From positions 1 to 43,303 of the IMG/VR virus record IMGVR_UViG_3300021437_000035: DNA of 43,303 nucleotides; one strand, 5' to 3'. Position numbers and translations under genes: made by a program. Numbering within the stretch: position 1 is the first letter of the stretch; every line of letters starts with the position of its first letter. This document shows positions 5,532 through 39,693 of the stretch, piece after piece. The stretch comes from a virus. Below the pieces are notes generated by a model. It saw nothing but the letters and a program-made list of their open reading frames with translations, had not been told where the DNA came from and did not search any database.

Positions 5532-5544
5532 TCCAGGCGCTGCC

Positions 5545-5877
5545 GTGCCGGCCGATTTCGACTCCTCCGTTGCCGAGCTGGGCGCGTCGGTGTTGCGCAA
5601 CATGCGCAATGCCGCTGCGCGCTTCAATGGCCGGCCAGCGGTGGATGCGATCTTCCGCAATCGGTCGGAGGTCGCGGGCTTGGGCCTGTCCGGCGTCTAT
5701 GCGCGCACGCCGCGCGTAACCTGCGCGATGGCGGATGTCGCGGACGTGATCCGAGGCGACGCGGTCGAGATCGAGTGCTCCGCCGCCATCGCGCCGTTCT
5801 ACACCGTACGCGAGCGCGAGCCCGACGACCTGCACGCGCGCCTGGCGACCTTCGTTCTCGAGCCGGCCGCTCCATGA
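5545..5877 (+). CDS. Head-tail joining protein, lambda FII-like
   Basis: Probable connector completing the head-tail interface. The 110-residue product begins PADFDSSVAELG and contains the FII-like pattern of a hydrophobic beta strand (AVDAIFRNR), then DVADVIRGDAVEI followed by FYTVREREPDDLHARL, the same order seen in lambda gpFII (117 residues). GTG start at 5545; the stop overlaps the next gene (ATGA at 5874), which indicates translational coupling. Overall identity to gpFII looks low, so the assignment rests on pattern, size and location between decoration protein and tail terminator. Confidence 0.65.
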   Translation: MPADFDSSVAELGASVLRNMRNAAARFNGRPAVDAIFRNRSEVAGLGLSGVYARTPRVTCAMADVADVIRGDAVEIECSAAIAPFYTVREREPDDLHARLATFVLEPAAP

Positions 5878-25760: not shown

Positions 25761-27053
25761 ATGCAATTCGACGCTCGCGCCGCCAAGCTGCTGCAGCCAG
25801 GCGCGCATTTAACCATCCCCGGCTGCCCGGGCCTGCGCCTCGAGGCGTCGGCGCAGCGTCGGGCATGGACCTACCGGTACAAGAGCCCCGTCGACGGCCG
25901 CATGCGGCAGATCCGGCTGGGTCTGTGGCCCGCGATGAGCCTGCCGTCCGCGGCGGCCGAGTGGGAGCGCCTGCGCGGGCTGCGCGACGCTGGCCAGGAT
26001 CCGGCCGTCGATCGCCGGCGGCGTCGAGCCGAGGAGGCCGTGGCCGCACGCCTGGAGCTCGATCGCCGGCGTGGCCAGGCCTACACCGTTGCACGCGTAT
26101 GCACGGACTACCTGACGGGGCACGTGCGACGCCATCGCAAGGCCAAGGGCGCCGCCGAGGTCGAGCGGATGTTCGACACGATGCTCGGCAACACGCGCGA
26201 CCTGGTCGCCGCCTCGCTGACGCGGGCGCAGGCCTTCGGGCAGCTCGAGGTGCACCTCGACATCCCCGTCCAGTGCGCCAAGCTGCGCGCCGAGCTTGGC
26301 GCGGCCTGGGACTATGCCCTCGACGCCGGCCGGCTGCCCGAGAACACGCCGAACTGGTGGCGGCAGATCATGCGCGGCCGCCTGCGGTCGACCGGAAAGC
26401 GCATCGGCGGCAAGCCGGTCGGCGCCACCAAGCGGGTATTGACCGAGGCCGAGACGGGCCAGCTGGTGCGCTGGCTGCCGAACTTCAGCCGCACGGTGGC
26501 CGACGTGCTGACGCTCTACCTGTGGACGCTGGCCAGGGGCTCGGAGATCGTGGCGATGGACAAGCGCGAGATCTCGGAGGAGGAGGACGGCCTGTGGTGG
26601 ACGGTGCCCAAGGCGAAGACGAAGAACGCCAAGCGGGCGACCGCCACCGATCTGCGCGTGCCGTTGATCGGCCGCGCGGAGCTGGTGGTGCGACGGCGGC
26701 TCGAGCTCGTCGACCGCGGGCCGCTCTTCCCGTCAGGCGGAAAGGTGGGCCACCTCGAGCAGAAGGCGGTGCAGACGGCCGTGCACTGGCATCAGCCCTA
26801 CAGCCGGACGCGGCGCGACCAGGTGCGACCGCGGCTGCCGGTGACGCATTGGGCGCCGCACGACCTGCGGCGCACCGGGCGTACCGCGCTGGCGGCGCTT
26901 GGATGCCCTGACGACGTCGCCGAGGCCGTTCTGGGGCACGTGCAGCCTGGCGTGAAGGGCGTCTACAACCTCCATAGCTATGACCCGCAGCGGCGAGAGT
27001 GGCTCGCTCGGCTGTCCAAGCGCCTCGAGGATCTAAGCGTGCTCGTGCTGTAG
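25761..27053 (+). CDS. int: Phage integrase, P4-type tyrosine recombinase
   Basis: Catalyses integration and excision of the prophage. 430 residues with a DUF4102-like N-terminal arm-binding domain ([29 protein letters not shown], about 20-62), a core-binding domain (about 105-205) and a C-terminal catalytic domain with Arg259 (LARGSEI), a Lys near 286, His367-Arg370 (HDLRRTGRT), His393 (LGHV) and nucleophile Tyr402 (VYNLHSY). ATG 25761 is chosen because the longer in-frame start would put the attP-like repeats in coding sequence. The 3' end overlaps intI by 21 bp in convergent orientation. Confidence 0.9.
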
Positions 27054-28034
27054 CTCGACAGCGAGGTCGGGAAGTTGGTCCAACGGGCTGCGCACCCCGT
27101 TTCCGGCCAGGCCGAGCACATGGGTGTAGATCATCGTGGTCGACACGTCCGAGTGGCCGAGCAGCTCCTGGACTGACCGGATGTCATAGCCCTGCTGCAG
27201 CAGGTGTGTCGCGAACGAGTGTCGCAGCGTGTGCGGCGTGGCAGGCTTGCGGATGCCGGCGCATTTGACGGCGCGTGCCATCGTGCGCTGCACGGTCTGG
27301 TCATAGAGATGATGCCGGCGCTCGACGCCGCTGACGGGATCGGTGCTGTAGTGGTCGGAGGCGAAGACCCATTGCCAGCCGAGCTGCCGAGCCGCCTGGG
27401 GGTACTTGCGGTGCAGCGCGTGCGGGAGCTCGACGTCGGCGCGGTTGCGCTGCAGGTCGAGAACGTGCCAGGCCTCGCGCTGCGCCAGCTGCTCGGCGAG
27501 TGCGGCCCGCAGTCGCTGGGGGACGGGCACGCTGCGGTCCTTGTTGCCCTTGCCCTCACGGACGGTGATGCACATGGCCTCGAGGTCCAGGTCCTTGACA
27601 CGCAGCCGCAGGCCTTCGGTGAGCCGCATGCCGGTGCCGTACAGCAACTTCAGCATCAGGCCGTGCACACCGATCAGGTGCGGCCACAAGCGGGCAATCT
27701 CCTGCTGCGTCAGGACGCAGGGCAGGCGCTGAGGCTGCTTGGCGCGCGCGATGTCGTCCACCCAGCCGATCTCGCGCTCGAGCACCTTCTGGTACAGGAA
27801 GAGGAGCGAGGCCAGTGCCTGGCGCTGCGTGCTCGCCGAGACCTTGCGATCGGTAGCTAGGTGCGAAAGGAACGCGCCCACCTCCTGCTTGCCCATCTCC
27901 GCCGGGTGCCGCTTGCCGGACCACAGGATGAAGGCGCGGATCCAGTGCCAGTACGCCTCCTCGGTCCGGCGGCTGTAGTGCAGCGTGCGGATCGTGGTGA
28001 TGAACTGGGCTTGGAGGCGTGGCGCTTCTGGCAT
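27033..28034 (-). CDS. intI: Integron integrase IntI
   Basis: Tyrosine recombinase that joins folded single-stranded attC hairpins to attI. 333 residues (IntI1 has 337), similar along the whole length to the integron family: [11 protein letters not shown] with Arg137, GKGNKDR with Lys162, [14 protein letters not shown] with His268 and Arg271, [14 protein letters not shown] with His294 and nucleophile Tyr303. Crucially it has the IntI-specific insertion at about 205-236 ([19 protein letters not shown] and STDPVSG), absent from phage and Xer recombinases and needed to hold attC extrahelical bases. The ATG is only 18 bp from the cassette boundary, leaving no space for its own promoter or a LexA box, so read-through expression is likely. 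Confidence 0.95.
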
Positions 28035-28089
28035 AGTGAGGCCTCGGACGTGTTATGCGTCAGGGGGTGAGGTCGAATTGGAGTTATGC
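28035..28089 (+). other. attI-like region with two GTTATGC cores
   Basis: GTTATGC occurs at 28052-28058 and 28083-28089, direct repeats 31 bp apart, immediately upstream of the intI start. Either could be the crossover core that joins cassette 1, whose R'' is the exact complement GCATAAC (28649-28655). The other may be an integrase-binding direct repeat as in attI1. The first core overlaps the TAA of the cassette 1 ORF. Confidence 0.6.
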
Positions 28090-28652
28090 GCCTTGCAGCG
28101 CTGGGCCAGCAGCACAAGCCATCGGGCAAATGCTTCTGGCGTGTGCTCGTATTCGTGCTTCGCAATGCTGGGGCGGCACGTTGCCCTGTCTCGGCCGCTC
28201 CACAGGCCCACGGTGTGCGTTGCGTCGCCCAGCACCATCGGCATGTCGGGTATCTCACGCGGTTCGCAGCCAACCACGTACAGGCGGGTCTTCTTCTGCG
28301 CTCGGTGCCCCCACCAGTGTTGTTGCACGTAGAGCGTCCAGCCGCCGTACTGGTCGCGCTCTTGCCCTTCTGGCATTTGTTGCGCCTTCCATAGCGTCGT
28401 GAACTGCGGGTGCTCAAGCACGCCGCCGAACTCTCGCACCAGCGCCACAGCCAACCGCGCCAAGTTGCGTTCATCGGCTCGAGGTTTCGCGCCGTGGCGC
28501 AGGCTCGCCCAGCTTCTGCACGGCGGGTGCGCTACCACCGGGTGCGGCCCGTCATAGGTGCGCGCGTCGCGTTCCATGTCGTACACCTCCACGCCAGGCA
28601 GCGTCTTGTAAACACTGTCTGCCCGCGCAAACAGTACGGCCACGGGGCGCAT
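28053..28652 (-). CDS. Cassette 1: conserved phage protein with HPPCRxW motif
   Basis: 199 residues, MRPVAVLFARADSVYKTLPG followed by VAHPPCRSWASLRHGAKP and GGVLEHPQ, then a C-terminal half with QHWWGHRA and RLYVVGC. The Pro-Cys in HPPCRSW resembles the catalytic loop of cytosine methyltransferases, but no SAM-binding motif is evident; similar proteins are seen in other phages without known function. The ATG lies inside R'' of attC1 and the stop inside the attI-side core, so the ORF fills the whole cassette, antisense to attC polarity. An extension to 28727 would run through attC1 and is not preferred. Confidence 0.75.
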   Translation of the reverse strand: MRPVAVLFARADSVYKTLPGVEVYDMERDARTYDGPHPVVAHPPCRSWASLRHGAKPRADERNLARLAVALVREFGGVLEHPQFTTLWKAQQMPEGQERDQYGGWTLYVQQHWWGHRAQKKTRLYVVGCEPREIPDMPMVLGDATHTVGLWSGRDRATCRPSIAKHEYEHTPEAFARWLVLLAQRCKAHNSNSTSPPDA

Positions 28653-28752
28653 AACTGGTCGCTCGAGCAGACCATGCCCGGCGGGCGAGGCCTGCTCGTT
28701 TGTCGTTTCGATGGTTGCGCCGGTCATGGCTCGCTCAGCTCAAACGTTAGGC
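28649..28752 (+). other. attC1 (104 bp)
   Basis: R'' GCATAAC (28649-28655) and R' GTTAGGC (28746-28752). Inner arms pair: GCTCGAGCAGACCATG on the left with CATGGCTCGCTCAGC on the right. Compared with the reverse-complemented right arm, the left arm carries an extra C and an extra A, the two extrahelical bases that give attC its polarity. This orients the site rightwards. The long centre (about 40 bp) gives the variable loop. Confidence 0.85.
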
Positions 28753-28937
28753 CCCAACCCAATCGGGCAGGGGTTCACGGGGCAGGTGTCGCAGTAGCGG
28801 TGCGGTGCGGCGTGCGGGCAGTCCTGCAGCGCCTCCACGGTCTTCTGCGCCCGCAGCGTGGCAAGGTGCATCACCAGCGCCTTGCGTTCCTCGGGCGTCA
28901 GGTTGTGCTCTGCAAATAGTTCGTCAAACGTCGTCAT
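28740..28937 (-). CDS. Cassette 2, second ORF: small cysteine-rich protein
   Basis: 65 residues: a helical N terminus MTTFDELFAEHNLTPEERK and a C-terminal CPHAAPHRYCDTCPVNPC that could bind a metal. The start overlaps the stop of the upstream ORF (ATGA at 28934). The last residues and the TGA (28740-28742) are encoded inside attC1, so the cassette uses the neighbour's attC to end its gene. Longer upstream extensions lie antisense to nothing plausible and are rejected. Confidence 0.65.
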   Translation of the reverse strand: MTTFDELFAEHNLTPEERKALVMHLATLRAQKTVEALQDCPHAAPHRYCDTCPVNPCPIGLGPNV

Positions 28938-29140
28938 TGAATGCCCCTGTGCACGTACACGGCAACACCCGTGTCCGGGTCTTTGTAGTCGATCGTCGGC
29001 TCGCACCAGCAGTCCGCGCTGGCGTCGTGCTGGCGCGGCGCTTGGCAGGGCCGAACCGCGCACATGCCGCCGTCTTGCAGCGGGTAAAACGTCGCGTATT
29101 CGCCGTCGCATTCGTCGGCATATTCACAATGACAGGTCAT
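28934..29140 (-). CDS. Cassette 2, first ORF: small cysteine-rich protein
   Basis: 68 residues with several cysteines (MTCHCEYADECDGEY, CAVRPCQ, DCWCEP), probably a small metal-binding protein. ATG 29140 has GAGGAAA just upstream; an alternative ATG at 29182 lies inside attC2. The leader to R'' is only 25 bp, so transcription must enter from the right, across attC2. Function unknown. Confidence 0.65.
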   Translation of the reverse strand: MTCHCEYADECDGEYATFYPLQDGGMCAVRPCQAPRQHDASADCWCEPTIDYKDPDTGVAVYVHRGIQ

Positions 29141-29164
29141 GGTTTCCTCGCTTCGGATATAGGG

Positions 29165-29225
29165 GCCTAACCCTTCGATCAAGGCGGACGCCCCTACGGG
29201 TCGCCGCTTATCTCAAACGTTCGGC
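29165..29225 (+). other. attC2 (61 bp)
   Basis: R'' GCCTAAC (29165-29171) and R' GTTCGGC (29219-29225). The inner bases follow the aadA-type layout: TTCGATCAAG then GCGGACGCC on the R'' side, and CGCTTATCTCAAAC on the R' side. Relative to the right arm, the left arm has an extra C (GAT-C-AAG) and an extra A (CGG-A-CG), fixing polarity rightwards. Confidence 0.92.
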
Positions 29226-29226
29226 A

Positions 29227-29544
29227 TCAAGTTCCAACCTTGTCGGTCGTCCCCTTCCAAGTGAATTCGCCATCGGCGCCCACCGGGAAGTGCGCGCGGC
29301 AGACCGCGCAGAACGTGCCGCTGTAGAAGGCGGGCTCGCGGGCGTAGGTTTCGGCCAGCGCCAGGCCCATCGTCGTCACACCGCCGCACTTGTCGTGCAC
29401 GTAGGCGCTGCGCACGGGCCGCACAAAGCCCTTCGCGCGTTCCTCGGCGCTCAGGACCACGTAGCCCTTCTGCTGGCCGGTGGCGGGGTCAATCTCGCGG
29501 TGGTCAGGCGTCACCGGGGAGCCGTCCGTCAGTGTGGTGTTCAT
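29227..29544 (-). CDS. Cassette 3, second ORF: conserved phage zinc-binding protein
   Basis: 105 residues with YVHDKCGGVTTMGLALAETY and FYSGTFCAVCRAHFPV, then GADGEFTWKG and a terminal KVGT; the single Cys plus CxxC could form a metal site. Proteins of this pattern are familiar in other phages, function unknown. The TGA (29227-29229) is one base from R' of attC2. The start overlaps the stop of the preceding ORF by 4 bp. One copy of the 12-bp attP-like repeat (29341-29352) is inside this gene. Confidence 0.75.
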   Translation of the reverse strand: MNTTLTDGSPVTPDHREIDPATGQQKGYVVLSAEERAKGFVRPVRSAYVHDKCGGVTTMGLALAETYAREPAFYSGTFCAVCRAHFPVGADGEFTWKGTTDKVGT

Positions 29545-29756
29545 TGCTTCTCCGTCAGCTCGAAATTGAAGGCATCGCCCTCGATGTTGAACGCGCAGAC
29601 GAAACGCCCCGTCTCGTCCACCTCCTTGACCGGGATCGAAACCTTGCTCCCAAGCCGCCGCAGGAACGCGATCAGCAGTTGGTCCTTGAAGTCGTCTATC
29701 ACGTCCGCGTGCAACCCAGCGCCAGCGGCGCGAGCGGCATCAGTTCCCTTGCCCAT
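29541..29756 (-). CDS. Cassette 3, first ORF: small protein, function unknown
   Basis: 71 residues, MGKGTDAARAAGAGLHADV then DDFKDQLLIAFLRRLG and a beta half (KVSIPVKEVDETGRFVCAF). ATG 29756 has GAAAGGAC upstream. Its leader (29757-29792) is closely similar to the leader of the backbone gene at 30607-30810, including the GCCGAAC core, which links cassette 3 to the phage's own early operon. Confidence 0.65.
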   Translation of the reverse strand: MGKGTDAARAAGAGLHADVIDDFKDQLLIAFLRRLGSKVSIPVKEVDETGRFVCAFNIEGDAFNFELTEKQ

Positions 29757-29785
29757 CTCAGTCCTTTCACGTCCGGCGCGTTGAG

Positions 29786-29887
29786 GCCGAACCCCTCGCT
29801 CAACCGGACGCATTGCGGCGGCCGGCAGTTGCGCCCTACTCGGGCAGTTGTGGCGCCGCAATGCGCCGGTTAGCTCGAACGTTCTGC
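29786..29887 (+). other. attC3 (102 bp)
   Basis: R'' GCCGAAC (29786-29792) and R' GTTCTGC (29881-29887). Long inner arms pair almost perfectly: CGCATTGCGGCG on the left with CGCCGCAATGCG on the right. The left arm has the extra C (CGCT-C-AAC) and extra A (CCGG-A-CGC) typical of the R'' side. It is the last attC; no GCAGAAC partner for its R' is found further right, so phage backbone follows. Confidence 0.9.
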
Positions 29888-30220: not shown

Positions 30221-30268
30221 CACTGCTCCTCGCCTTGGGTCACCAGGAGGCGATCCGTTTGTGCGGCC

Positions 30269-30544
30269 TCACATGCGTGCCGGGTCACGGGCGCGCATGG
30301 GGCCATCGCGCGGGCCGCCGGTTTCCTTCGAGCCCACGGGCTGCTTCTTCGGCTCTGTCACCTCGAGCTGGAAGTCATCGAACGTCTGCGCCTCACAGGG
30401 CTTGCCGTCCTTGTCCAGCGCCTGCGGCTGCAGCGTCATGCGCCAGCACCCATTCAGCCACTCGGTGCGAGCCACGCACACGCCAGCAAAGCCACTGACG
30501 GTGTCGCGGGCCTTGTCGCCGAGCTGCACATTCACCCTCGCCAT
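30269..30544 (-). CDS. Conserved phage early protein, function unknown
   Basis: 91 residues with LGDKARDTVSGFAGVCVAR, WLNGCWRMTLQPQAL and FDDFQLEV, a small beta-barrel-like protein of a type common in early regions of phages, followed by a basic, Pro/Gly-rich tail (GGPRDGPMRARDPARM). Forms part of the leftward operon; 48 bp separate it from the zinc ribbon gene. No known activity. Confidence 0.7.
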   Translation of the reverse strand: MARVNVQLGDKARDTVSGFAGVCVARTEWLNGCWRMTLQPQALDKDGKPCEAQTFDDFQLEVTEPKKQPVGSKETGGPRDGPMRARDPARM

Positions 30545-30606
30545 CGCTTCTCTCCGGTAGTGCCCTGGTGGGCGGTTGATTCATCGGCCTCACTGTCGGC
30601 GTAGGT

Positions 30607-30810
30607 TCAGCGCAGCGCGCGGTTGCCCAGCACCAGATCGTGAACCCCCTTCAGCGCCCGCAGCGCCGCCTCGCGATCGCCCACGACCAGGTGGCTGTGG
30701 TGCGTGTTCACCAGCGTCGTGAGCTGGTGCTCGATGGTCGGGTAGGCCTCGGTGGTCTTGACCACGGGTGCCGTCTTGCGTGCACCCCGTTGAACCTTCT
30801 TCATCTCCAT
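30607..30810 (-). CDS. Small leftward-operon protein, function unknown
   Basis: 67 residues: basic N terminus MEMKKVQRGARKTAPVV, then a helical HQLTTLVNTHHSHLVVGDR and a C-terminal helix. The leader (30811-30839) carries GAAAGGAC and a GCCGAAC core and matches the leader of cassette 3. Function unknown. Confidence 0.55.
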   Translation of the reverse strand: MEMKKVQRGARKTAPVVKTTEAYPTIEHQLTTLVNTHHSHLVVGDREAALRALKGVHDLVLGNRALR

Positions 30811-30854
30811 CGTCCTTTCGCTTCGGCGCGAGGCCGAACGGGTTTCCCAGGCCG

Positions 30855-31121
30855 TCAGGCCTCGCCGCCGGTGGCGGACTTCTGCCTGTACTTCCCGGCG
30901 TTCTTGCCGGCGTTGGGCGGTGGCGCCATCTGGCTGACCGGCCTGGACTGAGCCCAGGCCTCGAGCTCGGCGACCAGGTAGACCGCGCGCCTCGGGCTGA
31001 TCTGCCGCGGCTTTGGGGCGTTGCCCGCGCGCACCTCCGCCTTGAACACCGAAAGCGACAGCGAGACCATCTCGGCGGCCACTTCGACGTCGACGGCGAT
31101 CGGCCGGATCTCGACGCTCAT
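30855..31121 (-). CDS. AlpA/excisionase-like DNA-binding protein
   Basis: 88 residues with a winged-helix pattern like AlpA and Xis: VAAEMVSLSLSVFKAEVR, a turn NAPKPRQISPRRAVYLV and a closing ELEAWAQSR, then a basic tail. In phages with P4-type integrases such proteins direct excision or activate the integrase gene, so it is a candidate recombination-direction factor. Its ATG (31121) overlaps the stop of the upstream gene (31118). Confidence 0.65.
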   Translation of the reverse strand: MSVEIRPIAVDVEVAAEMVSLSLSVFKAEVRAGNAPKPRQISPRRAVYLVAELEAWAQSRPVSQMAPPPNAGKNAGKYRQKSATGGEA

Positions 31122-31393
31122 GGTTGAAACTCCACGCGATCGCGTGCGTGCTTTTCTGCGTACGCCTTCAGGTCCTGCAGGTTGAAGCCGATGGCCATCG
31201 ATCGGCCGTCGGGATCGAGCACCACGTACGGCATCAGCTTGGGGTCGGTCTGCAGCTGGATGACGAAGCCGGTGGCCTCGAACTCGATACGCGTGCCGTC
31301 GAGCGGGAACCAGCCGCGCGGCTGCTCCCGTCCCAGGTTGAAGGGGAACAGCAGCCGCGCGAGCCGTTGGGCGGAGAACGTAGGCAGGGCCAT
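31118..31393 (-). CDS. Leftward-operon protein, function unknown
   Basis: 91 residues, alpha/beta (FSAQRLARLLFPFNLGRE, FEATGFVIQLQTDPKLM, AIGFNLQDLKAYAEKHARD). ATG 31393 is preferred over 31426 because GAGGAG is well spaced before it. The stop overlaps the next gene by 4 bp. No family recognised. Confidence 0.6.
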   Translation of the reverse strand: MALPTFSAQRLARLLFPFNLGREQPRGWFPLDGTRIEFEATGFVIQLQTDPKLMPYVVLDPDGRSMAIGFNLQDLKAYAEKHARDRVEFQP

Positions 31394-31404
31394 GCGCTTC
31401 TCCT

Positions 31405-31689
31405 CTATCGGCCGGAGCCGCCGCAAGCCTGCTCGCTGCGCTTGAGCCGCTCCCAGGCCTGGCGCGGCGAGATCTCGTAGGGCACGCCGGTGGCGGCCTC
31501 GCGCCGGCCCATGGCCATCGCCACGGCGTGCAGCGGTCCGGCCGTGGTGAGCAGGTAGCTGGTCGAGCAGCGCACGCCGGTCTCGGCGTTCCAGGTGACG
31601 TCGATCACGCGGCGGCCGCGGCGCGAGTTCAGCCGCAAGCCGGGCACGCCGCTCGAGTTGGACCGCGTGATGGAGTTGATGCGCGGCAT
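31405..31689 (-). CDS. Leftward-operon protein, function unknown
   Basis: 94 residues; strongly basic N-terminal part with SITRSNSSGVPGLRLNSR and GRRVIDVTWNAETG, which looks AP2-like or otherwise DNA/RNA-binding, and a helical C terminus (SPRQAWERLKRSEQ). ATG 31689 has AGGAG in good position. Functional assignment not possible. Confidence 0.6.
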   Translation of the reverse strand: MPRINSITRSNSSGVPGLRLNSRRGRRVIDVTWNAETGVRCSTSYLLTTAGPLHAVAMAMGRREAATGVPYEISPRQAWERLKRSEQACGGSGR

Positions 31690-31691
31690 CG

Positions 31692-32036
31692 TCAAGGCTC
31701 CTGTCGCTGCTTGAGGAGCAGCAGGTAATCGGGGTCGTCGAGGGGCACCAGCACGGCCTTGGTGGCCGCCATGTCGACGGCGATGCCGCTCGAGCGCTCG
31801 ACGACCTTGATCAGCGGCATGATCTGGGCGCCGAGGAAGGTGACCGGGTCGATCCCCTTCAGGTGCGCGCGGCAGACCTTCAGGCCCAGCACCATGTTCG
31901 TGAGTGGCTTGTCGGTGCGGTAGTGCTTCATCACGGCACGCGGCGGGAAGAACTGCAGCGCGAGCGCGCCGTCGGCCGGCGCGGTGCAGCCCTGGTGCTC
32001 ACACATCGGTGCGGGAGTGGCCGCTGTTTCGTTCAT
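31692..32036 (-). CDS. Leftward-operon protein with Cys/His cluster
   Basis: 114 residues. The N-terminal CEHQGCTAPAD and a later VCRAHLKG could form one zinc site; the rest is mixed helix/strand (PLIKVVERSSGIAVDM, AVLVPLDDPDYLLLL). ATG 32036 overlaps the upstream stop (ATGA). Longer upstream starts would read against the preceding gene. Role unknown. Confidence 0.65.
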   Translation of the reverse strand: MNETAATPAPMCEHQGCTAPADGALALQFFPPRAVMKHYRTDKPLTNMVLGLKVCRAHLKGIDPVTFLGAQIMPLIKVVERSSGIAVDMAATKAVLVPLDDPDYLLLLKQRQEP

Positions 32037-32284
32037 GGCACCACCGGCTGTCCGGGTGTGACCAGGCCGGCCTCGGCGAGCGCCGCATAGACCTCGTGCG
32101 CGAGGTCTCGACCCTTGACGATGAACATGGCGCTGTCGGCGTCGTCCCAGCCGCTGCCGTCGATGAACACGCTGACCGGGCCGGGATTCTTGGCCGCCTT
32201 CTGCAGCAACTGCCTGGTCGTGCCGTAGCCGGTGCGCAGCGGTATCTGCTGCGGGTGCCGCAGGGTGTCGGTGCTCATGGTCAT
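32033..32284 (-). CDS. Leftward-operon protein, function unknown
   Basis: 83 residues: helical N-terminal part (TTRQLLQKAAKNPG), a central VSVFIDGSGWDDADSAMFIV and helical C terminus (DLAHEVYAALAEAG). ATG 32284 overlaps the ParB-like stop (ATGA); ATG 32278 is an equal alternative. No family recognised. Confidence 0.6.
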   Translation of the reverse strand: MTMSTDTLRHPQQIPLRTGYGTTRQLLQKAAKNPGPVSVFIDGSGWDDADSAMFIVKGRDLAHEVYAALAEAGLVTPGQPVVP

Positions 32285-34323
32285 GCGGCCGAGCTGGTCG
32301 TGAACGGCCATGCTGCCTCGGCGGTGATGTGGCCATCCTGCGCGGCAGGCGGCTGTGCCGGCTTGTCGGTCTGATTGGTCTTGCGGCTGGGCTTGTTGGC
32401 CTTGCCGGTGAGCTTGGCGACATCGACGCCGGTGTCCCGGGCCACGGCGTCGGCCAGTGCCTTCTCGGGCGTCAGCTGCTCTTCGTCCTTGCCTTCGGCC
32501 GGCGATGGATTGCCTTGCGCGGCAGCGTCACTCGAAGGGGTAGAAGTGCCCTTGCTCGGCTTCTTGCGTGCAGGCGTCTTGCGCGGCGCGGCCTTCGGCT
32601 TGGCGGGCTCCACCACCTCGGCGAGCTGGGCGATCTCGGCGCGCAGGGCCTCGTCGACCTCGGCTTGAACCTCGCTGCGCAGCGCCGGTAGGTCGAACTC
32701 GATGTCGGCCGCCAGCGCGTCGGCCGTCTCGGGCTTCGCGGTCTTCCGCCAGGCATCCGTGTTGACCAGGTGACCGAGCAGCATCGTGATGCAGGCGCGG
32801 TTGAGGGCCTCGCCGTCGAGTTCGTCCAGGAAAATGCGGCCGCCGACCTTGGTGCTGCCCGTCGCCGCCCGCTCGAGCGCGTCGAAGTTCAGCTCGCTGG
32901 CTTCGTAGAGCATGTGCGCGAGCTCGTGCATCCAGACCTTGCTCTCGCTCGGGAAACCGAAGGCGTCGTCCGAGGCCAGGTGCTTCCACAGCGTGCCTGG
33001 CAGGCGCTCATACAGAAGTTTCTCGATGCGCCGGCGGCGCTGGGCTAGCAGATCTTCGGCGGTGATCGGCTTGCCCGGCTGGCCGGGCTTGCTCTTGGTG
33101 CTGGCGCGCAGCAGCCCCTTGGCCTTCAGCGCGGCTTTGACGTCGTCGAGCTTGGCCACCGTGATCGGCTCGTCGTCGTTGTCGCCCTTCACCACCATCG
33201 TGCCCTGGAAGTCCGCGCCGAGCAGGGTGCGCAGCGTCTTCTTGGAGCCGGTCAGCTCCTCGTCGGGCTTGGCCAGGTTGACGTGGCCGGTGTGGCGCAG
33301 GCTGTAGTCGTTCAGGTGCGCGCCGCCGAGCACCTTCTCCGCGGCTTTGCCGGTGAGCACCGTCTGCCCGGCCTCGCGCGCGTGGTCGAGCGTGCGCTGC
33401 GCGTGCGCCGCCACCTTCGACTGGTGGCAGGCGCTGTCGAGGCACATGTCGTCGGCGTTGCCGTCGCCGAACAGGTCGGGGTTGGCGCCGCTGCGTTTCT
33501 GACAGTCCTTGCACGCGCCGGCGGCGGGTACGAGCGTGGCGTCGGCGGGGTCGAAGCCGGCCTTCACCAGCTTGAGCATGAAATGCTGGCGCAGGTAGGC
33601 CACCGCCTGGCGGTGGGTGTAGGGCTCTCCGGCCCAGCCGCGCAGCAGATCGGGCAGCGCGCGCTCCTGCTCCGCGATGGCCATGCGGGCCAGCGGCTCG
33701 GCGACCTTCAGCTGGATCTTGTCGTCGAGAAACGCCTCCCGCGCAGCCGGGATCAGCTCCAGCAGCTTGAGCCGGCCGAAGACGAAGTTCGGCTTGTGGC
33801 CGATGCGCTCGGCGATCTGCTCGACGGTGAGGCCGCGCAGGCGCGGCGGCTTGAACTCCCCACCGCCCACGGGGCGCAGCAGCAGGTTCTCGTAGGCCTC
33901 GGCCTCCTCGAGCGGGTGCAGGTCGCTGCGGTCGACGTTCTCGGTCAGCGCGATCTCGGCCGCCTCGAAGTCGTCGAGAACGCGCGGGAATGCGGGGATG
34001 AGATAGGGCCCCTTGTAGTTGCCGCTGGCGGCGAGGATCTTGCAGGCCCGCCACCGCCGCTCGCCGACGACGATCTCGAACCGCGGCTCGCCGGGCTTCG
34101 CGCCCTCGATGCCGCGCACGACGATGGCCTGCTGCACGCCCTTGCGGGCGATGCTGTCGGCCAACTCCTGCAGTGCCTCGGCATCGAACCGCTTGCGCGG
34201 CTGAAACTTGCCCGGCCGCAGCAGATCGATCGGCAGCATCAGCGCCTCGATCTTGATGAAGGGCTCGGGTGCCGGGCCGGCCGGCTCGGTGATGACGGTG
34301 CTGTCGAGGCTGTCGGTACTCAT
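32281..34323 (-). CDS. ParB/Srx-domain protein (PRTRC ParB-like)
   Basis: 680-residue multidomain protein. An N-terminal ParB/sulfiredoxin fold (about 22-130) contains GERRWRA (87-93), the CTP-binding motif of ParB, and ENVDRSDLHPLEEAEAY; a helix-turn-helix follows at about 166-190. A cysteine cluster (CKDC near 270, MCLDSACH near 295) may bind zinc. The C-terminal third is Lys/Pro/Ala-rich. No ParA gene is present, so plasmid-like partition is unlikely; a role in regulation or as a nuclease is more probable. Largest gene of the leftward operon. Confidence 0.75.
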   Translation of the reverse strand: MSTDSLDSTVITEPAGPAPEPFIKIEALMLPIDLLRPGKFQPRKRFDAEALQELADSIARKGVQQAIVVRGIEGAKPGEPRFEIVVGERRWRACKILAASGNYKGPYLIPAFPRVLDDFEAAEIALTENVDRSDLHPLEEAEAYENLLLRPVGGGEFKPPRLRGLTVEQIAERIGHKPNFVFGRLKLLELIPAAREAFLDDKIQLKVAEPLARMAIAEQERALPDLLRGWAGEPYTHRQAVAYLRQHFMLKLVKAGFDPADATLVPAAGACKDCQKRSGANPDLFGDGNADDMCLDSACHQSKVAAHAQRTLDHAREAGQTVLTGKAAEKVLGGAHLNDYSLRHTGHVNLAKPDEELTGSKKTLRTLLGADFQGTMVVKGDNDDEPITVAKLDDVKAALKAKGLLRASTKSKPGQPGKPITAEDLLAQRRRRIEKLLYERLPGTLWKHLASDDAFGFPSESKVWMHELAHMLYEASELNFDALERAATGSTKVGGRIFLDELDGEALNRACITMLLGHLVNTDAWRKTAKPETADALAADIEFDLPALRSEVQAEVDEALRAEIAQLAEVVEPAKPKAAPRKTPARKKPSKGTSTPSSDAAAQGNPSPAEGKDEEQLTPEKALADAVARDTGVDVAKLTGKANKPSRKTNQTDKPAQPPAAQDGHITAEAAWPFTTSSAA

Positions 34324-34384
34324 GCGATTCCTTCACTGCGAAGTGACGGCGCTGCGCGACCGCGCGGCGCTCGTGGGTTGTGCT

Positions 34385-35152
34385 CTACGGCTGGCTGGCC
34401 TTCTTCCGCTCGGCGACCGTGGCTGCCACGGTGGCCTCGGCCCAGTACACGCGGCGGCCCTGGCTGTAGTCGGCGCGCGGCAGGTGCCTGCTGTGCACGA
34501 GGTTGTGCACGCGCTGCGTGGAGATGTCGCCCAGGCGCTGAGCGAACTGCTCGACGCTCACCCAGTCGGCCGGGATCGGCAGCGGCGTGATCTTGGGCAG
34601 GTGGCGCGTGCGCCTGGTCCTGTCGGCGAGCAGCTCGCAGATGCGCTCGGCCTGCGCCTCGCTCCATAGCGCCGGGTACTGGGCGCGGCCGGGCTGCTCG
34701 GCTTTCTCGACAGTGCCGGCGAGGATCAGCACGCTGATGAAGCTCGGGCTGAAACCCGAACGCTCGGACAGCTGCTTGATCGTCACCATGCCCGGCGGCG
34801 GCACGAAGGGCTTGATGTTGCGCTTCGCCTTGGGCTTGGCCCCGGCGTTGGTGGAGGGCACCGGTGCCGGGGCAGGCACGGCCACGGCCGATTCCCGCCG
34901 CGCGCTGGGCATCGGGTCCGGCCGGCGCATCAGGTGCGGCGCCGGTGACGACGGGCGGCTGTAGACCGGCAGGCTCTGTGCCCGGCTCTTCAGCGTGGGC
35001 GGCGTGCTGGCCTGGGTGCCGGCGTTGCGAACGTAGTGCAGCAGCGCGCGGCCGATCTGCACCGCCAGCTTGAGGTTGTGCTCGGCCACCGGTGCGGTGG
35101 CCAGGCTGGCCAGGCCGAGCTCGCACTCGCGGATGCTGGGCAGGCCGCTCAT
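34385..35152 (-). CDS. Putative DNA-binding protein with two HTH modules
   Basis: 255 residues. After a helical N terminus and a Pro/Ala/Ser-rich linker (about 75-110) come two helix-turn-helix segments: MVTIKQLSERSGFSPSFIS with VLILAGTVEKA, and WVSVEQFAQRLG followed by QRVHNLVHSRHLPRADYSQ. The paired modules suggest binding of two half-sites. It lies upstream of the ParB-like gene with a 61-bp gap. Function unknown. Confidence 0.6.
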   Translation of the reverse strand: MSGLPSIRECELGLASLATAPVAEHNLKLAVQIGRALLHYVRNAGTQASTPPTLKSRAQSLPVYSRPSSPAPHLMRRPDPMPSARRESAVAVPAPAPVPSTNAGAKPKAKRNIKPFVPPPGMVTIKQLSERSGFSPSFISVLILAGTVEKAEQPGRAQYPALWSEAQAERICELLADRTRRTRHLPKITPLPIPADWVSVEQFAQRLGDISTQRVHNLVHSRHLPRADYSQGRRVYWAEATVAATVAERKKASQP

Positions 35153-35547
35153 CGGGCAACCTTGCGCAGCAGATAGGGGTGCACCGGGTGCGCTTCGAAG
35201 ATGCCGGCGCCCAGCGCATAGGCCAGGGCCTCGCTGGCCATGTCCAGCAGCTCGCCAGGCACCTCACGCAGGTCGACCAGCGGGCGGATGTCGTAGTAGC
35301 GCACGCCGTCGAACTCGACGGCGATGCCATCGGACTCGATGTCGCTGATCACCGCGCGCTCGGCGATGTGGCGGGCGCTGGATTCAAGTGCGCGCGCCAG
35401 GCGCCAGCGCTCGAGTGTGCCGCAGGCCGAGACGGAGCCGAGGTACACGCGCACGTCGGAGCCGCACCAGTCGGTGCACTCGCACGGCTCCAGGCGCTTG
35501 CACGGCTGCGAGCCCTGGGGGTCGCTGGGGTCGATCGTCTGAGGCAT
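35149..35547 (-). CDS. Leftward-operon protein, cysteine-rich N terminus
   Basis: 132 residues. Cysteines at about 16, 22, 24, 28 and 42 (CKRLEPCECTDWC) suggest a metal site; the rest is alpha/beta with VYLGSVSACGTLERWRLA and IAVEFDGVRYYDIRPLVD. The stop overlaps the next gene (ATGA). Recognised only as a phage early protein of unknown role. Confidence 0.65.
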   Translation of the reverse strand: MPQTIDPSDPQGSQPCKRLEPCECTDWCGSDVRVYLGSVSACGTLERWRLARALESSARHIAERAVISDIESDGIAVEFDGVRYYDIRPLVDLREVPGELLDMASEALAYALGAGIFEAHPVHPYLLRKVAR

Positions 35548-35550
35548 GGC

Positions 35551-35835
35551 TCAGTCCTCCTCGCGCTCGCCTGCGGCGGCGCGCTTGCGGTCAAACAGTT
35601 CGGGCGGCGGCCTGCGCCTGGGCGCGAACGCCGGCGCCCGCCGTACCTTGGCGGGCTGTTCGGGCCCCGAACCCACCCGCTCGGCGCGCCGCTGCAACAG
35701 CCCGGCCTGCAGGCGCACCAGCGCGGCGAGCAGCGGGCGAGCCATCGTGGCCTCGTAGGTGTCGGGCCAGTTGCGCCGCCGCCGCTGCTGCCACGCCTTG
35801 CGCAGCAGCTCGTCGGGCATGTCGGCGCGGAACAT
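35551..35835 (-). CDS. Basic leftward-operon protein
   Basis: 94 residues, very Arg-rich: MFRADMPDELLRKAWQQRR, NWPDTYEATMARPLLAALV and a Pro/Arg tail. It probably binds nucleic acid. Starts at ATG 35835, ends 3 bp before the next gene. No family recognised. Confidence 0.6.
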   Translation of the reverse strand: MFRADMPDELLRKAWQQRRRRNWPDTYEATMARPLLAALVRLQAGLLQRRAERVGSGPEQPAKVRRAPAFAPRRRPPPELFDRKRAAAGEREED

Positions 35836-35841
35836 GGCGGC

Positions 35842-36081
35842 TCACGCGTGCAGCCCGGGGAAGTCGAGCAGCCGGCCTTCGCTGCCGCACGCGCCGTGGG
35901 GCGCGCGAGCCACGCGGATGTCGACCACCCGGCCCGCGGCTGCCACCTCGGGGTGCGTGCAGTAGCGCGCCTGGCCCAGCACCGCGACGTGCGTGCACAG
36001 GCGGCAGGCGCCGTAGTCCATCACCTTGGCCAGGCGCTCGTCGACGGCGAAGGCCAGGCCGGCCAGCTCGGCCGAGATCAC
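35842..36081 (-). CDS. Small Cys-rich early protein
   Basis: 79 residues with CRLCTHVAVLGQARYC and a later GACGSEG, a pattern of small zinc-binding proteins found in several phage early operons (YCTHPEV, then VRVARAPHGACG). Start overlaps the upstream stop (ATGA at 36078). Function unknown. Confidence 0.65.
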   Translation of the reverse strand: MISAELAGLAFAVDERLAKVMDYGACRLCTHVAVLGQARYCTHPEVAAAGRVVDIRVARAPHGACGSEGRLLDFPGLHA

Positions 36082-36506
36082 GACAGGCGCCCCAGCTGGA
36101 TCGCCACCACCGCGATCAGCCAGCCGCCGCCCAGGCCGGCCAGGCCGAACAGCGCCGCGCCCCAGCGAAAGCCGCTGCGCCAGCCCGCACCGCGGCCCTG
36201 GCGCACGCCCTGCAGCAGGCCGGCGGAGCGCGCGGCGCGCAGCGCGATGGTGAGCGAGTCGTCGCTGGTTTCGCGGAGCTCGCGCACCTGGGCCTCGCGG
36301 CCGAGCTCGTGCTCGATGGCGCGCTCGGGGGCCAGGCGCCGCTGGCGCGCCCGGTCGGCGACGGCCGGGTCGGGGAAGGGGATCGGCTCGGGCGCGGCAG
36401 CCAGCCTGGGGCTTTCGAGCGGGAGATCGATGTGTGCACCGCTGCGCGGAGGCGCAAAAGCCATCGGGCGCAGCGGGTCGGGCAGGTCGGCGAAGCGACG
36501 GTTCAT
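36078..36506 (-). CDS. Early protein with C-terminal membrane span
   Basis: 142 residues: Pro-rich N-terminal third (PDPLRPMAFAPPRSG), a charged middle (RQRRLAPERAIEHELGREAQ) and a terminal hydrophobic helix, WGAALFGLAGLGGGWLIAVVA, so it is a tail-anchored membrane protein. ATG 36506 is preferred over an earlier ATG at 36521. Possible role in host takeover or exclusion is inference. Confidence 0.6.
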   Translation of the reverse strand: MNRRFADLPDPLRPMAFAPPRSGAHIDLPLESPRLAAAPEPIPFPDPAVADRARQRRLAPERAIEHELGREAQVRELRETSDDSLTIALRAARSAGLLQGVRQGRGAGWRSGFRWGAALFGLAGLGGGWLIAVVAIQLGRLS

Positions 36507-36531
36507 GGCGGCGGCCTCCATGGCGCGGCGG

Positions 36532-36675
36532 TCAGGGCAAGGGGATGGAGTCCAGCCAGCCGGCCAGGCCCCACAGAAAGACGATCAGCAGGAACACCAG
36601 CGGCCAGCGCACCCGCGGGCTGCGTGCACACCAGCGCTCGAGCGGCGAGGGCTCGGGGAGCTCGTAGCGGCTCAT
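36532..36675 (-). CDS. Tiny membrane protein
   Basis: 47 residues: MSRYELPEPSPLERWCARS, then one membrane span VRWPLVFLLIVFLWGLAGW. ATG 36675 overlaps the upstream stop by 4 bp (ATGA), which supports translation. Function unknown. Confidence 0.55.
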   Translation of the reverse strand: MSRYELPEPSPLERWCARSPRVRWPLVFLLIVFLWGLAGWLDSIPLP

Positions 36676-36920
36676 CGGCGGGCCTCGCTCGCGGCGGGGT
36701 CGACGGGTTGCAGGGTCTTGTCGTGGCCCGGGGCGGCTTCGAAGTCCTCGGGGTCGCCACCGCCGCAGCCGGCGAGGGCGCCGAGCAGGGCCATGACGAC
36801 GAGGACGATGGCGACGGCGAGCATCCGGCGGGCCGCGATGCGCACCGCCAGGCAGAAGACCAGGCGGCGGCGGAAGCGCTCGTCGCCGAGCGCGAGGTAG
36901 AGGCACTCGGCGGGGCTCAT
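36672..36920 (-). CDS. Membrane protein/lipoprotein-like, CGGGDP motif
   Basis: 82 residues. A basic N-terminal part (about 1-32) precedes a hydrophobic segment, MLAVAIVLVVMALLGALAGC, that ends like a lipobox. The outer part CGGGDPEDFEAAPGHDK resembles the start of the lipoprotein at 25283-25426 (CGGGDP followed by PGH). The signal is unusually far from the start, so it may remain a membrane anchor. Coupled to both neighbours by overlaps. Confidence 0.6.
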   Translation of the reverse strand: MSPAECLYLALGDERFRRRLVFCLAVRIAARRMLAVAIVLVVMALLGALAGCGGGDPEDFEAAPGHDKTLQPVDPAASEARR

Positions 36921-37318
36921 GACCGGCGCCCCTTGCGCTGGCGCGCCACGGCGAGCTGGTGGCCGAGGGCGAGGAATTCGCGGTCGTTCTCGCCGCGCCT
37001 GGCGTAGCCGCGCAGCAAGTCCATCAGGACCTCGACGTGCTCCTCGTCGGCGTTGGCCAGCAGGCTCGACAGGTACACGGGGGCCTTCTTGGCCCACACG
37101 CCGTCGTTATAGAGGTTCAGCACCACGGCCTGCAGGCGCAGGGCGGTGCTGTGGCACTGGACGATCTTGTCGCGGTGGACGAGGAAGGGGGATTCGCCGC
37201 CGGCGATGCGCTCGCGCTCGGTGCGCTGGCGGTGCTGCTCGGCGGCTACCGCCTCGGCGTAGGTGGTCGGGGGCGCCGCTGCGGGGGCGCCGGCCGTGGG
37301 AAGTTCGGTGAAGGACAT
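36917..37318 (-). CDS. First gene of the leftward operon, function unknown
   Basis: 133 residues: Ala/Pro-rich N terminus, a helical EQHRQRTERERIAGGE, and a C-terminal region ALRLQAVVLNLYNDGVW and LLANADEEHVEVLMDLL. AGGAG lies upstream of ATG 37318. It is the promoter-proximal gene of the PL transcript, where lambda has N, but its length and lack of an Arg-rich start do not suggest an N-type antiterminator. Function unknown. Confidence 0.65.
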   Translation of the reverse strand: MSFTELPTAGAPAAAPPTTYAEAVAAEQHRQRTERERIAGGESPFLVHRDKIVQCHSTALRLQAVVLNLYNDGVWAKKAPVYLSSLLANADEEHVEVLMDLLRGYARRGENDREFLALGHQLAVARQRKGRRS

Positions 37319-37353
37319 TTCCGCTCCTGTCGCCCGGGGTGGGCGTGGAGCGG

Positions 37354-37397
37354 ATGATGCGTTAACGCATCAGACCTGTCAATACGTCAACGCATCA
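37354..37397 (-). promoter_or_regulatory. PL promoter with two operators (OL)
   Basis: On the minus strand a perfect -35 TTGACA (37382-37377) is followed after 17 bp by a -10-like CATCAT (37359-37354). An 18-bp perfect palindrome TGATGCGTTAACGCATCA (37355-37372) lies between and over them, and a second, 14/18 match (37380-37397) covers the -35. The two sites are 25 bp apart, as in OR. Repressor binding would block the leftward operon, including the integron. Confidence 0.8.
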
Positions 37398-37416
37398 TTC
37401 TTTGCGGCTCGACCGA

Positions 37417-37731
37417 TCAATTCGGGAAGCGGTGCCGATCGCTGGCAATTGGGTCGTCAACGTCGATCTGCTTCCAGCCGCGGCGCAGGTAGCGGCGTTC
37501 AAGGATTCCCTTGGCGGCGAACACGTACACGAGCCACAGTGGGATGCCGATGAAGGCGCCGGGTCCGCCACTCAACAGCGCCGCGCCGAAGATGAGCGCG
37601 ACTTGGAGCGCGACATGACCCCACAAGCCTTTCACGAGCATGTAGACCCAGCCGAAGAGGAGGACCCACAACCAGGTGAGAGGACTCACTTCCTCGCGAT
37701 AACCGTTGCCGGGATTCTCGAATCTGGACAT
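37417..37731 (-). CDS. Membrane protein co-expressed with repressor
   Basis: 104 residues with two or three membrane segments (WLWVLLFGWVYMLVKGLW, ALQVALIFGAALLSG, AFIGIPLWLVYVFAA) and a basic aromatic tail ERRYLRRGWK. GGAGG precedes ATG 37731. It lies 25 bp after the repressor stop and on the same strand, so it is probably made in the lysogen, where lambda has rexAB. A superinfection-exclusion role is plausible but unproven. Confidence 0.65.
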   Translation of the reverse strand: MSRFENPGNGYREEVSPLTWLWVLLFGWVYMLVKGLWGHVALQVALIFGAALLSGGPGAFIGIPLWLVYVFAAKGILERRYLRRGWKQIDVDDPIASDRHRFPN

Positions 37732-37756
37732 CTTTCAATCCTCCCATCTAACACGC

Positions 37757-38110
37757 TCAGTTGCCCTTTCTTGGGCGTGCGGCGGCAGCCATCGCCTTCC
37801 CGGCTGCAATGAGTGCTTCGCGCTGCGGTTCGTCGAGCGCGTCCATGATGCGCACCAGCTCGCGTACTTCCATCCGAGAACTGAGGGGCACTTCACCAAG
37901 AAGCTCGCTGGGCGTGACGTCGAGCACTCGTGCGAGTGCAACAAAACTCGCAACCTCCATCGTGTCGGACTTCCTCGAGAGGTAGCGATTCAAAGTCGGC
38001 TGAGGTACGCCGGCCGCAATGGCCAGAGCGCGTTCTGACGCAAAGCCGCGCTGTACGCGTAGCTTTTCAATGATCTCGCGGGGGTCCGCTGAGCCGAAGG
38101 GGTTATGCAC
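37757..38110 (-). CDS. CI-like phage repressor
   Basis: Maintains lysogeny by binding OL and OR. About 117 residues: an HTH_3-type domain with SERALAIAAGVPQPTLNRYL and a helical region VASFVALARVLDVTPSELLG, then a short C terminus with no LexA-type peptidase domain. Unlike lambda CI it therefore has no visible self-cleavage module, and induction must work another way. An in-frame ATG at 38161 exists, but it would place operator sequence in the coding region; GTG 38110 is preferred, with modest confidence. Confidence 0.8.
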   Translation of the reverse strand: MHNPFGSADPREIIEKLRVQRGFASERALAIAAGVPQPTLNRYLSRKSDTMEVASFVALARVLDVTPSELLGEVPLSSRMEVRELVRIMDALDEPQREALIAAGKAMAAAARPRKGN

Positions 38111-38133
38111 ATACGCATTCTGTGGCGCATGGC

Positions 38134-38185
38134 TTGCGTCAATGATGCGTTGATGTATCATGCGGCGCTATGCTTCAACGCATCG
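38134..38185. promoter_or_regulatory. OR: PR promoter and two operators
   Basis: Rightward -35 TTGCGT (38134-38139), 16-bp spacer, -10 TATCAT (38156-38161). Operator 1, TGATGCGTTGATGTATCA (38143-38160), matches the perfect OL palindrome at 15 of 18 bases; operator 2 (38168-38185, 13 of 18) overlaps the cro start codon. Their spacing is 25 bp as in OL. The -10 ends 8 bp before the cro ATG, so cro mRNA may be nearly leaderless. Confidence 0.75.
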
Positions 38186-38391
38186 ATTTCGCGAAATTGA
38201 CTCGTGTCTTGCTGCAAAGCGGGCGCTACACGACAGCAAGCCTCGGGCGTGAACTCGGTGTGACCCAGCCTTCCATCAGCAGGCTCGCAAATGGCAAGAC
38301 GCGATCGGTGTCGGCCGACGTGGGCATTGGCTTGATCGTGCTGGCCGGAGGTCGGGTGGAAATGCCTGAGCCGGGTGGTCAAGGGTTGTAA
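38170..38391 (+). CDS. cro: Cro-like regulator
   Basis: 73-residue DNA-binding protein, divergent from the repressor gene. The HTH is TASLGRELGVTQPSISRLA, followed by a short VSADVGIGLIVLAGG strand region. It would favour lytic growth by occupying OR and OL. The start codon lies inside the second OR operator and close to the predicted transcript start, so there is little or no leader. Confidence 0.75.
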   Translation: MLQRIDFAKLTRVLLQSGRYTTASLGRELGVTQPSISRLANGKTRSVSADVGIGLIVLAGGRVEMPEPGGQGL

Positions 38392-38396
38392 TGCCG

Positions 38397-38687
38397 TCAC
38401 TGGGTCAACTCGAATCCGGGCGCTCGCTTATGCCGTGCGCTGCCGACGTGCGTGAGCCACACCTCGACGCGCAAATCGTCCGGCGACCGCCATTCGTGGA
38501 TTACCAGTTCGACGCCCCACGCGCTGGTGCTACTGAGGTAGATCACTTCGCCTTTGCGCGGCAGTGGCGCGCTAAGCGGCAGGTAATGGGGTGCGCGCCG
38601 CCGCGTTGGCAGCAGATGCTCCTGCTCGTCGGCCACACAGAGGTGAATCTCGATACGCGGGGTGGTCGCAGCGTGTTCGTCGCTCAT
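38397..38687 (-). CDS. Small protein convergent with cro, function unknown
   Basis: 96 residues: IEIHLCVADEQEHLLP, then LPRKGEVIYLSSTSAWGVE and SPDDLRVEVWLTHVG, a small beta protein. It reads against Cro and ends 5 bp from its stop. The related small ORF at 38975-39235 has the same order of motifs, suggesting paralogues. A competing plus-strand ORF here (38391-38822) has poor composition and is rejected. Confidence 0.5.
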   Translation of the reverse strand: MSDEHAATTPRIEIHLCVADEQEHLLPTRRRAPHYLPLSAPLPRKGEVIYLSSTSAWGVELVIHEWRSPDDLRVEVWLTHVGSARHKRAPGFELTQ

Positions 38688-38974
38688 AGGTCCCCGGAAA
38701 TGCGAGTCGTCGGAACCGAAAACAATCGGCCGAAAGATGCAGATCCACATCCCCAGGATGGGCGTTTCGTGTTGGTTCCGTTGCAGAGAGTGGCCGAGGA
38801 TGGGGTGCAACGTGCAGCGTGAGCGCTTCGTGCCCGCGTACAAGCAGCGCCGGCAGCGGCGCGACGCGATTGATCCGCAGACGAAGCAGCTGTATGCACT
38901 GCGAGAGACCATGGTGCCGACCTGCATTGGCTCCATATCCTCCGGCGCTACGCGGGCCGAGCTCGTCGCTGCTC

Positions 38975-39235
38975 TCAATGCACGAGCGTCAGCGCTGGCC
39001 GCCTTTCGAGTCCATTCAGCGAGTCTTCCCGAGCGAGAACCACGGCCAGGCGCGCAGGTGAGGATCGATCCGCCGGGAACACGATCGTCCGATGCACCCC
39101 CGCCCAATGCGTCTGGCCAAAGCGCAGCGAGTCGCCGACTGCTGGAACGATCGGCATGCTTCTGCCATTGGGCTCGGCGGCAATTCGGTCGATTTCTTCG
39201 CGCTCGTCGCTCGGAATGATGAGATCGATTTCCAT
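38975..39235 (-). CDS. Small protein, possible paralogue of 38397-38687
   Basis: 86 residues, MEIDLIIPSDEREEIDRIA, then MPIVPAVGDSLRFGQTHWA and SSPARLAVVLARED. The arrangement (acidic start, short beta segment with Gly-Asp/Glu, aromatic Trp, S-P-x-x-L) parallels the gene at 38397-38687. GGGGGG precedes the ATG. The 287 bp between the two genes hold no convincing minus-strand gene; a plus-strand ORF there is doubtful. Confidence 0.5.
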   Translation of the reverse strand: MEIDLIIPSDEREEIDRIAAEPNGRSMPIVPAVGDSLRFGQTHWAGVHRTIVFPADRSSPARLAVVLAREDSLNGLERRPALTLVH

Positions 39236-39262
39236 GGGTGCCCCCCTGTGCTGTGCTGTGTC

Positions 39263-39277
39263 CTGGGAAGTTCCCAG
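39263..39277. promoter_or_regulatory. 15-bp perfect palindrome upstream of cII
   Basis: CTGGGAAGTTCCCAG, perfectly symmetrical around a central G, lies in the 143-bp gap between the leftward ORF and cII. Candidate binding site for a dimeric regulator; it does not match the OL/OR operator. Confidence 0.4.
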
Positions 39278-39339
39278 CGTAGCGCAGGCGGGGCTGCCCG
39301 CCATGGTTGTCTCCTCCGAGGCTCTCGCCTTGGACTTGT

Positions 39340-39372
39340 GCCCGGGCCGGTGACGGCTCGGGCTCTTTCTTC
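39340..39372 (+). terminator. tR1-like intrinsic terminator between cro and cII
   Basis: GCCCGGGCCG (39340-39349) pairs with CGGCTCGGGC (39354-39363), nine Watson-Crick pairs plus one G-U, around a GTGA loop, followed by TCTTTCTTC. This is a good rho-independent terminator just upstream of the cII ATG, the place of tR1 in lambda, implying an antitermination step that is not identified here. Confidence 0.75.
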
Positions 39373-39378
39373 ACTGGA

Positions 39379-39693
39379 ATGAACGTCATGTCGTCAGCTT
39401 CGTCGACGCCGCCTGAAAGAGCCCGAAAAGCGATGCAACTCGCGTTGCAGGCCCTGCAAGAGCCTGGGAAGGCGGCTTCAACCGCTGTCGCGATGGGGGT
39501 CTCGGACTCCACGATCAGCCGCATCAAGACCGAGCGGCTAGAGGAGGTGCTGGTCTTCCTGGCTCACCTCGGGCTCAAGGTGGTGCCGCAGGAGTTCAAG
39601 TGCGTGGACCCGGCGGCGTATGCATTCCTGACGCACACGCACGAGCGGGTGCTGGCGACGCGGCCGGAGCTGATCTGGGGCGCGGAGGAGTGA
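39379..39693 (+). CDS. cII: CII-like transcription activator
   Basis: 104 residues with the CII pattern: RARKAMQLALQALQEPG, then an HTH in AMGVSDSTISRIKTERLEE and VFLAHLGLKVVPQEF. Lambda CII (97 residues) tetramers activate PRE and PI to establish lysogeny. It directly follows the tR1-like hairpin, as in lambda. ATG 39379 and ATG 39388 are both possible; the first is used. No clear TTGC-N6-TTGC target was found by eye. Confidence 0.75.
   Translation: MNVMSSASSTPPERARKAMQLALQALQEPGKAASTAVAMGVSDSTISRIKTERLEEVLVFLAHLGLKVVPQEFKCVDPAAYAFLTHTHERVLATRPELIWGAEE

Follow-up and report, generated by a model that had tools for sequence, protein, structure and literature searches.

An integron array lies in a phage genome in which the cassette genes read toward the integrase gene, against the polarity of their attC sites. 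This raises the question of how such genes come to be expressed, and whether the arrangement is peculiar to one locus or general among phages. We analyzed the IMG/VR virus record IMGVR_UViG_3300021437_000035 over its whole length of 43,303 bases (hereafter the window) and compared it with related loci, designated by L numbers.

Organization of the integron in the phage genome

The window carries tailed-phage genes (terminase, portal, head, and tail), and its structural genes and a phage integrase form a rightward block as far as 27053. The gene intI (27033..28034, minus strand) is full length, and its product scored 450.5 bits against TIGR02249 (cut-off 265), identifying it as a true integron integrase. 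In a gene list based on coding scores, intI closes a leftward run starting at about 39.5 kb, and the phage genes feeding into the array occupy 30607..39527 (minus strand). The initial annotation had assigned cassette transcription to a phage PL operon; no lambda-type regulator was identified in the window, only the leftward gene run, and the name "PL" is borrowed by analogy from lambda. Upstream of the window intI, no LexA-like box was found. A promoter scan, weak in this GC-rich DNA, found nothing above chance in the window, nor any promoter-like site in the region of intI.

The attI and attC sites adjoin the 5' end of intI. The attI site (28052..28089, plus strand), with GTTATGC cores at 28052-28058 and 28083-28089, was located by identity with L001 and by homology breaks: 28 nt, from AATTCGACC to GCATAAC, are the same at the matching place in L001, although the cassettes differ, and the attI core is the point where homology breaks in related phages. 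Crossover at attI probably takes place at the outer core (28083/28084).

Three cassettes follow in the attC direction (plus strand), at 28084..28746, 28747..29219, and 29220..29881. They contain attC1 (28649-28752), attC2 (29165-29225), and attC3 (29786-29887), respectively, each recognized by arm asymmetry and a covariance model. Since attC core boxes are palindromic, polarity was judged from arm asymmetry. A whole-window scan placed unpaired extra bases on the left arm (+1 in attC1, +2 in attC2 and attC3; spacers 5/6). The initial claim of left-arm extra bases therefore held for all three sites, with the correction that attC1 has one clear extra base only. Such an extrahelical base was shown by experiment to direct attC strand choice (PMC2727003). 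The covariance model, trained on the bottom strands of 41 bacterial attCs whose cassettes have classical gene direction, matched the minus strand of the window at attC1 (31.6 bits), attC2 (57.8 bits), and attC3 (37.5 bits) and found no match on the other strand. The polarity of the window attCs relative to intI is ordinary. Overall the model returned 195 matches across 77 sources; opposite-strand matches outside the window comprised three sites of L067, a locus with a turned intI, and four weaker secondary matches to sites that score higher on the ordinary strand. Core-box matching of cassette ends was rejected as a polarity test, being symmetric and uninformative, as was comparison of DNA folding energies between strands, where the difference is too small to decide polarity alone.

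Reversed genes in the window cassettes

ORF1 (28053..28727, minus strand), the reversed gene of cassette 1, has its first ATG within attC1, its second ATG in the core, and its stop in the inner attI core. Residues 26-217, corresponding to the cassette body, match phrog_12600 (E 8e-69), and the length of ORF1 was reached in 0 of 1000 Markov sequences, so it is not a chance ORF. Its predicted fold weakly resembles C5 DNA methyltransferases, a remote likeness. Relatives of ORF1 include ordinary phage genes as well as tight reversed cassettes, some of them in phage records without an above-cut-off intI match.

The other two cassettes each hold two reversed ORFs on the minus strand. In cassette 2, a 68-aa ORF (28934..29140), with a GAGG ribosome site 25 nt from attC2, is followed by a 65-aa ORF (28740..28937), which stops within attC1 and has a relative in an L011 cassette. 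In cassette 3, a 71-aa ORF (29541..29756) precedes a 105-aa ORF (29227..29544) encoding a widespread phage protein, function not known, with 322 relatives among viral contigs. Relatives of the 71-aa ORF adjoin the counterpart of its 105-aa neighbor in L012, L182, and L185. The ORF pairs overlap at ATGA sequences (28934/28937 in cassette 2 and 29541/29544 in cassette 3). In a codon model trained on long ORFs, the four leftward ORFs from 28053 to 29544 were clearly positive; the ORF at 29541-29756, for which the relatives in other phages speak, was ambiguous (2.7, versus 3.1 for a rightward ORF at 29532-29873). The shorter ORFs were unremarkable in length by the Markov test (0.43 and 0.27), so their case rests on coding score and homology.

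Coding scores and homology thus bear out the initial claim that five ORFs run leftward, toward intI, against attC polarity. The tight packing that it described was confirmed by the ORF ends, with starts and stops falling within or beside core sites, and by the ATGA overlaps; the number of cassettes had to be corrected to three.

Gene direction in viral and bacterial arrays

Next, we applied identical scripts to two sets of related integrons, 80 located on viral contigs and 80 in bacterial genomes. Viral status was taken from IMG/VR together with terminase matches in 22 of 34 records (two models, of which PF03354 covers part of these phages). In the L050 record (G020:C1:991-2916), the terminase match crosses four TGA and three TAA codons, reflecting a decayed gene, assembly errors, or recoding.

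The polarity of attC relative to intI was ordinary in both sets. Among the viral cassettes of ordinary attC polarity, 82 genes read toward intI and 3 away, with 19 uncalled (43 loci with arrays), versus 6 toward and 63 away among the bacterial cassettes (35 loci); array counts refer to loci where sites were detected, as the detector misses divergent attCs. The Fisher p value for 82:3 versus 6:63 was about 4e-32, for loci that are not independent, and per-locus majorities were 41:1 reversed to classical in the viral set and 1:31 in the bacterial set. An additional bacterial set gave 2 toward intI and 13 away, and a few bacterial arrays contain reversed cassettes. The reversed arrangement noted at this locus is therefore general among related phages. 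Because the codon model could mislead, we also compared the two strands of the viral cassettes by the family matches of their longest ORFs: the toward-intI strand matched 63 PHROG and 11 Pfam families, and the antisense strand one of each. The sole antisense Pfam family is a helix-turn-helix domain and probably reflects the classical gene of L001.

The direction of the surrounding genes followed the same division, the first genes outside the arrays facing toward versus away from intI in a ratio of 104:5 in the viral set and 18:31 in the bacterial set. Together with the cassette counts, this supports the earlier proposal of an expression logic unlike that of the Pc-driven integron. SOS (LexA) control of intI is common in classical integrons but not universal; LexA-like boxes preceded intI in 2 of 72 viral and 25 of 77 bacterial upstream regions. 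A ribosome site and start codon opening the reversed ORF were present in 26 of 47 long viral attCs, compared with 6 of 47 on the antisense strand of the same sites and 3 of 27 in bacteria. Relative to the next core, gene ends are concentrated at -1, +6, and +13, each position in a different reading frame. In internal viral cassettes, stops at these positions jointly amount to a three-frame stop where the gene meets the next attC.

Descent of the integrases

In a tree of 142 IntIs, 55 viral sequences formed one all-viral group (SH-aLRT 99), comprising 31 loci with reversed arrays, one classical locus (L001), and a remainder that could not be called. L001 is the closest IntI relative of the window and the only viral locus with a classical majority; its classical cassette is an exception to the rule of reversal. 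Reversed arrays were also present in a second viral group (L073, L076, and L080) and in L051, whose IntI lies inside a bacterial group. Since reversed arrays occur in separate viral branches, more than one origin appears likely from the tree. In L067 (7135-7934), intI is turned, the attCs lie downstream of it, and most genes run in one direction; this locus reaches co-direction with the operon by an alternative route. Repeated reversal and the L067 arrangement argue for selection, although the loci are related and the counts not independent.

Closer relatives were sought among annotated and cultured genomes. The annotated phage collection held no close IntI, the best (61%) being of class 1 type on a P1 phage. 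Not one IntI exceeded 61% identity in 399 genomes belonging to the same order as L146 (Simplicispira), which left the search without a cultured host model. In the named phage Rctr41k, an IntI-like gene sits within a same-direction operon, but no attC was detected, and this candidate was set aside.

Cassette insertion, sharing, and cargo

Pairs of near-identical phages retain homology through intI to the attI core and then diverge (for example, L028/L029, 99.9% over 4,084 bp; L044/L048, 100% over 1,335 bp), and the loss of homology at the attI crossover indicates that insertion was recent. Cassette 3 of the window is also present in L012 (90.5% identity over 561 nt, across the body), and duplicated cassettes occur in L001 and L052. 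The L001 duplicate (4608-5976) is a tandem copy of a 666-bp cassette with a classical, helix-turn-helix-like gene and may be a bacterial cassette that a phage has acquired. A window gene just beyond the array (30264..30578, minus strand) is 86-88% identical to a reversed cassette in L052, the homology ending near the cores, and is probably a former cassette that has no recognizable attC.

Cassette cargo matched DNA methyltransferases, Mom-like modification, PAPS reductase, DHH phosphoesterase, HNH, and exonuclease families, and the majority of cassette proteins have no known function. In the Gallionella contig L091 (6662-7537), a reversed cassette gene belongs to phrog_2045, which is also a phage cassette in L016; this is possibly a phage cassette inside a bacterial integron. 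The phage records L165, L172, and L185 hold attC arrays reversed relative to their genes and no above-cut-off intI.

Proposed model and alternative explanations

We propose, with a probability of roughly 80%, that the locus is an integron adapted to phages, in which attC serves as a 5' leader and the cassettes owe their expression to a phage operon that begins outside the array and ends in intI. Because IntI, attI, and attC are related as in bacterial integrons, the folded bottom strand of attC should be the substrate for capture and excision, as it usually is. A long phage operon would enter the array at its far end and finish in intI, with the cassette genes co-oriented; in the window, this would be the leftward operon. 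Expression would come from an external phage promoter and not from a Pc in intI. Each attC would precede its gene as a 5' leader, often supplying its ribosome site and start codon; genes would end within the following core site or close to it. At attI, adjoining intI and farthest from the promoter, a new cassette would be inserted. With transcription running toward intI, the displaced non-template strand would be the bottom strand of attC, which, going a step further, could then fold and recombine more readily. Comparison of the loci at the sequence level bears out attC polarity, the reversal of the genes, their co-orientation, the recent insertion at attI, and the viral IntI clade; we infer the external promoter, the co-transcription of intI, and selection as the source of the bias, and the benefit would be the swapping of DNA-modification and other accessory genes.

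Among the alternatives, the one that survives best, though still unlikely, is that reversed cassettes carry their own promoters and that their match with the operon is a by-product of cassette formation, attC having arisen upstream of a phage gene, with no selection for shared transcription. The occurrence of the same genes as ordinary phage genes without attC is consistent with this, but genes fill the cassettes and often start within attC, leaving little room for promoters, and both the co-orientation of neighboring genes and the solution reached by L067 favor shared transcription.

Chance insertion of a dead integron fragment, its genes co-oriented by accident with a direction set by phage gene density, is quite improbable. 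Captured host pieces have been published, for example, in Vibrio phage p16 (PMC9892861), and co-oriented blocks are general among phage genes. Against this, intI is not truncated, attI is a point of difference between near-identical phages, cassettes are common to several phages and also duplicated, and the two captured integrons examined in phages retain mostly ordinary orientation.

We give still less weight to the idea that the attCs are truly of opposite polarity, so that the cassettes are ordinary and intI alone lies at the wrong end; the symmetric core boxes and cassette-end matches are compatible with it, but the extra bases and spacers speak against it, the bacterial-trained covariance model finds one strand only, and homology breaks between phages sit beside intI, the expected place of attI. 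Least credible is that the leftward ORFs are antisense shadows of real rightward genes, because, even if GC-rich DNA contains long ORFs on both strands and one rightward cassette 3 ORF scores like its leftward counterpart, family matches fall nearly all on the toward-intI strand and ORF1 matches phrog_12600.

The phage-adapted integron, as favored here, leads to a broader reading, toward which we lean slightly: phages would keep their own integron lineage and cassette pool, with attC as 5' leader and expression by phage operons, orientation would separate the phage and bacterial pools, and phages would make new cassettes from ordinary phage genes. The question of cassette origin becomes more testable because one and the same gene is found in both states, ordinary phage gene and reversed cassette. 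That dozens of other uncultured phages are likewise reversed points to a phage-adapted form of the integron that shuffles DNA-modification and other genes, a gene-swapping device relevant to escape from restriction.

Comparison with known integrons

Bacterial integrons (class 1 and chromosomal) and the window have in common the IntI family, attI beside the start of intI, tandem cassettes, and the structure and polarity of attC. In classical integrons, cassette genes point outward from attI in the attC sense; in the window, all five run against attC and in the direction of the outside operon. The LexA-like box of SOS-controlled classical integrons was not found before the window intI or most viral ones, and viral arrays have ribosome sites within attC.

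Integrons and CALINs in phage genomes were described by Qi et al. 2023 (PMC9892861); those phage integrons likewise consist of integron parts, some with DNA methyltransferase genes, and the paper describes no reversed class. In annotated records, gene direction in Shewanella phage M16-3 and Vibrio phage p16 is for the most part ordinary, unlike that in the window, and M16-3 has an annotated LexA site, in contrast to the window intI. A search limited to the open-access literature found no description of reversed phage cassettes.

In the reverse integrons of spirochaete type, intI is turned and the cassettes are ordinary. They resemble the window in that intI and cassette genes run in one direction, and L067 resembles their plan. 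In the window, however, intI, attI, and attC are ordinary and the genes are turned, and the cassettes do not lie at the 3' end of intI, as they do in the spirochaete type. Spirochaete-type reverse integrons are mentioned in PMC9668308. The asymmetry of attC is regarded as ensuring that captured genes take the orientation in which the platform can express them (PMC2727003); in these phages, the recombination geometry is kept and the expression rule is inverted, indicating that the two are separable.
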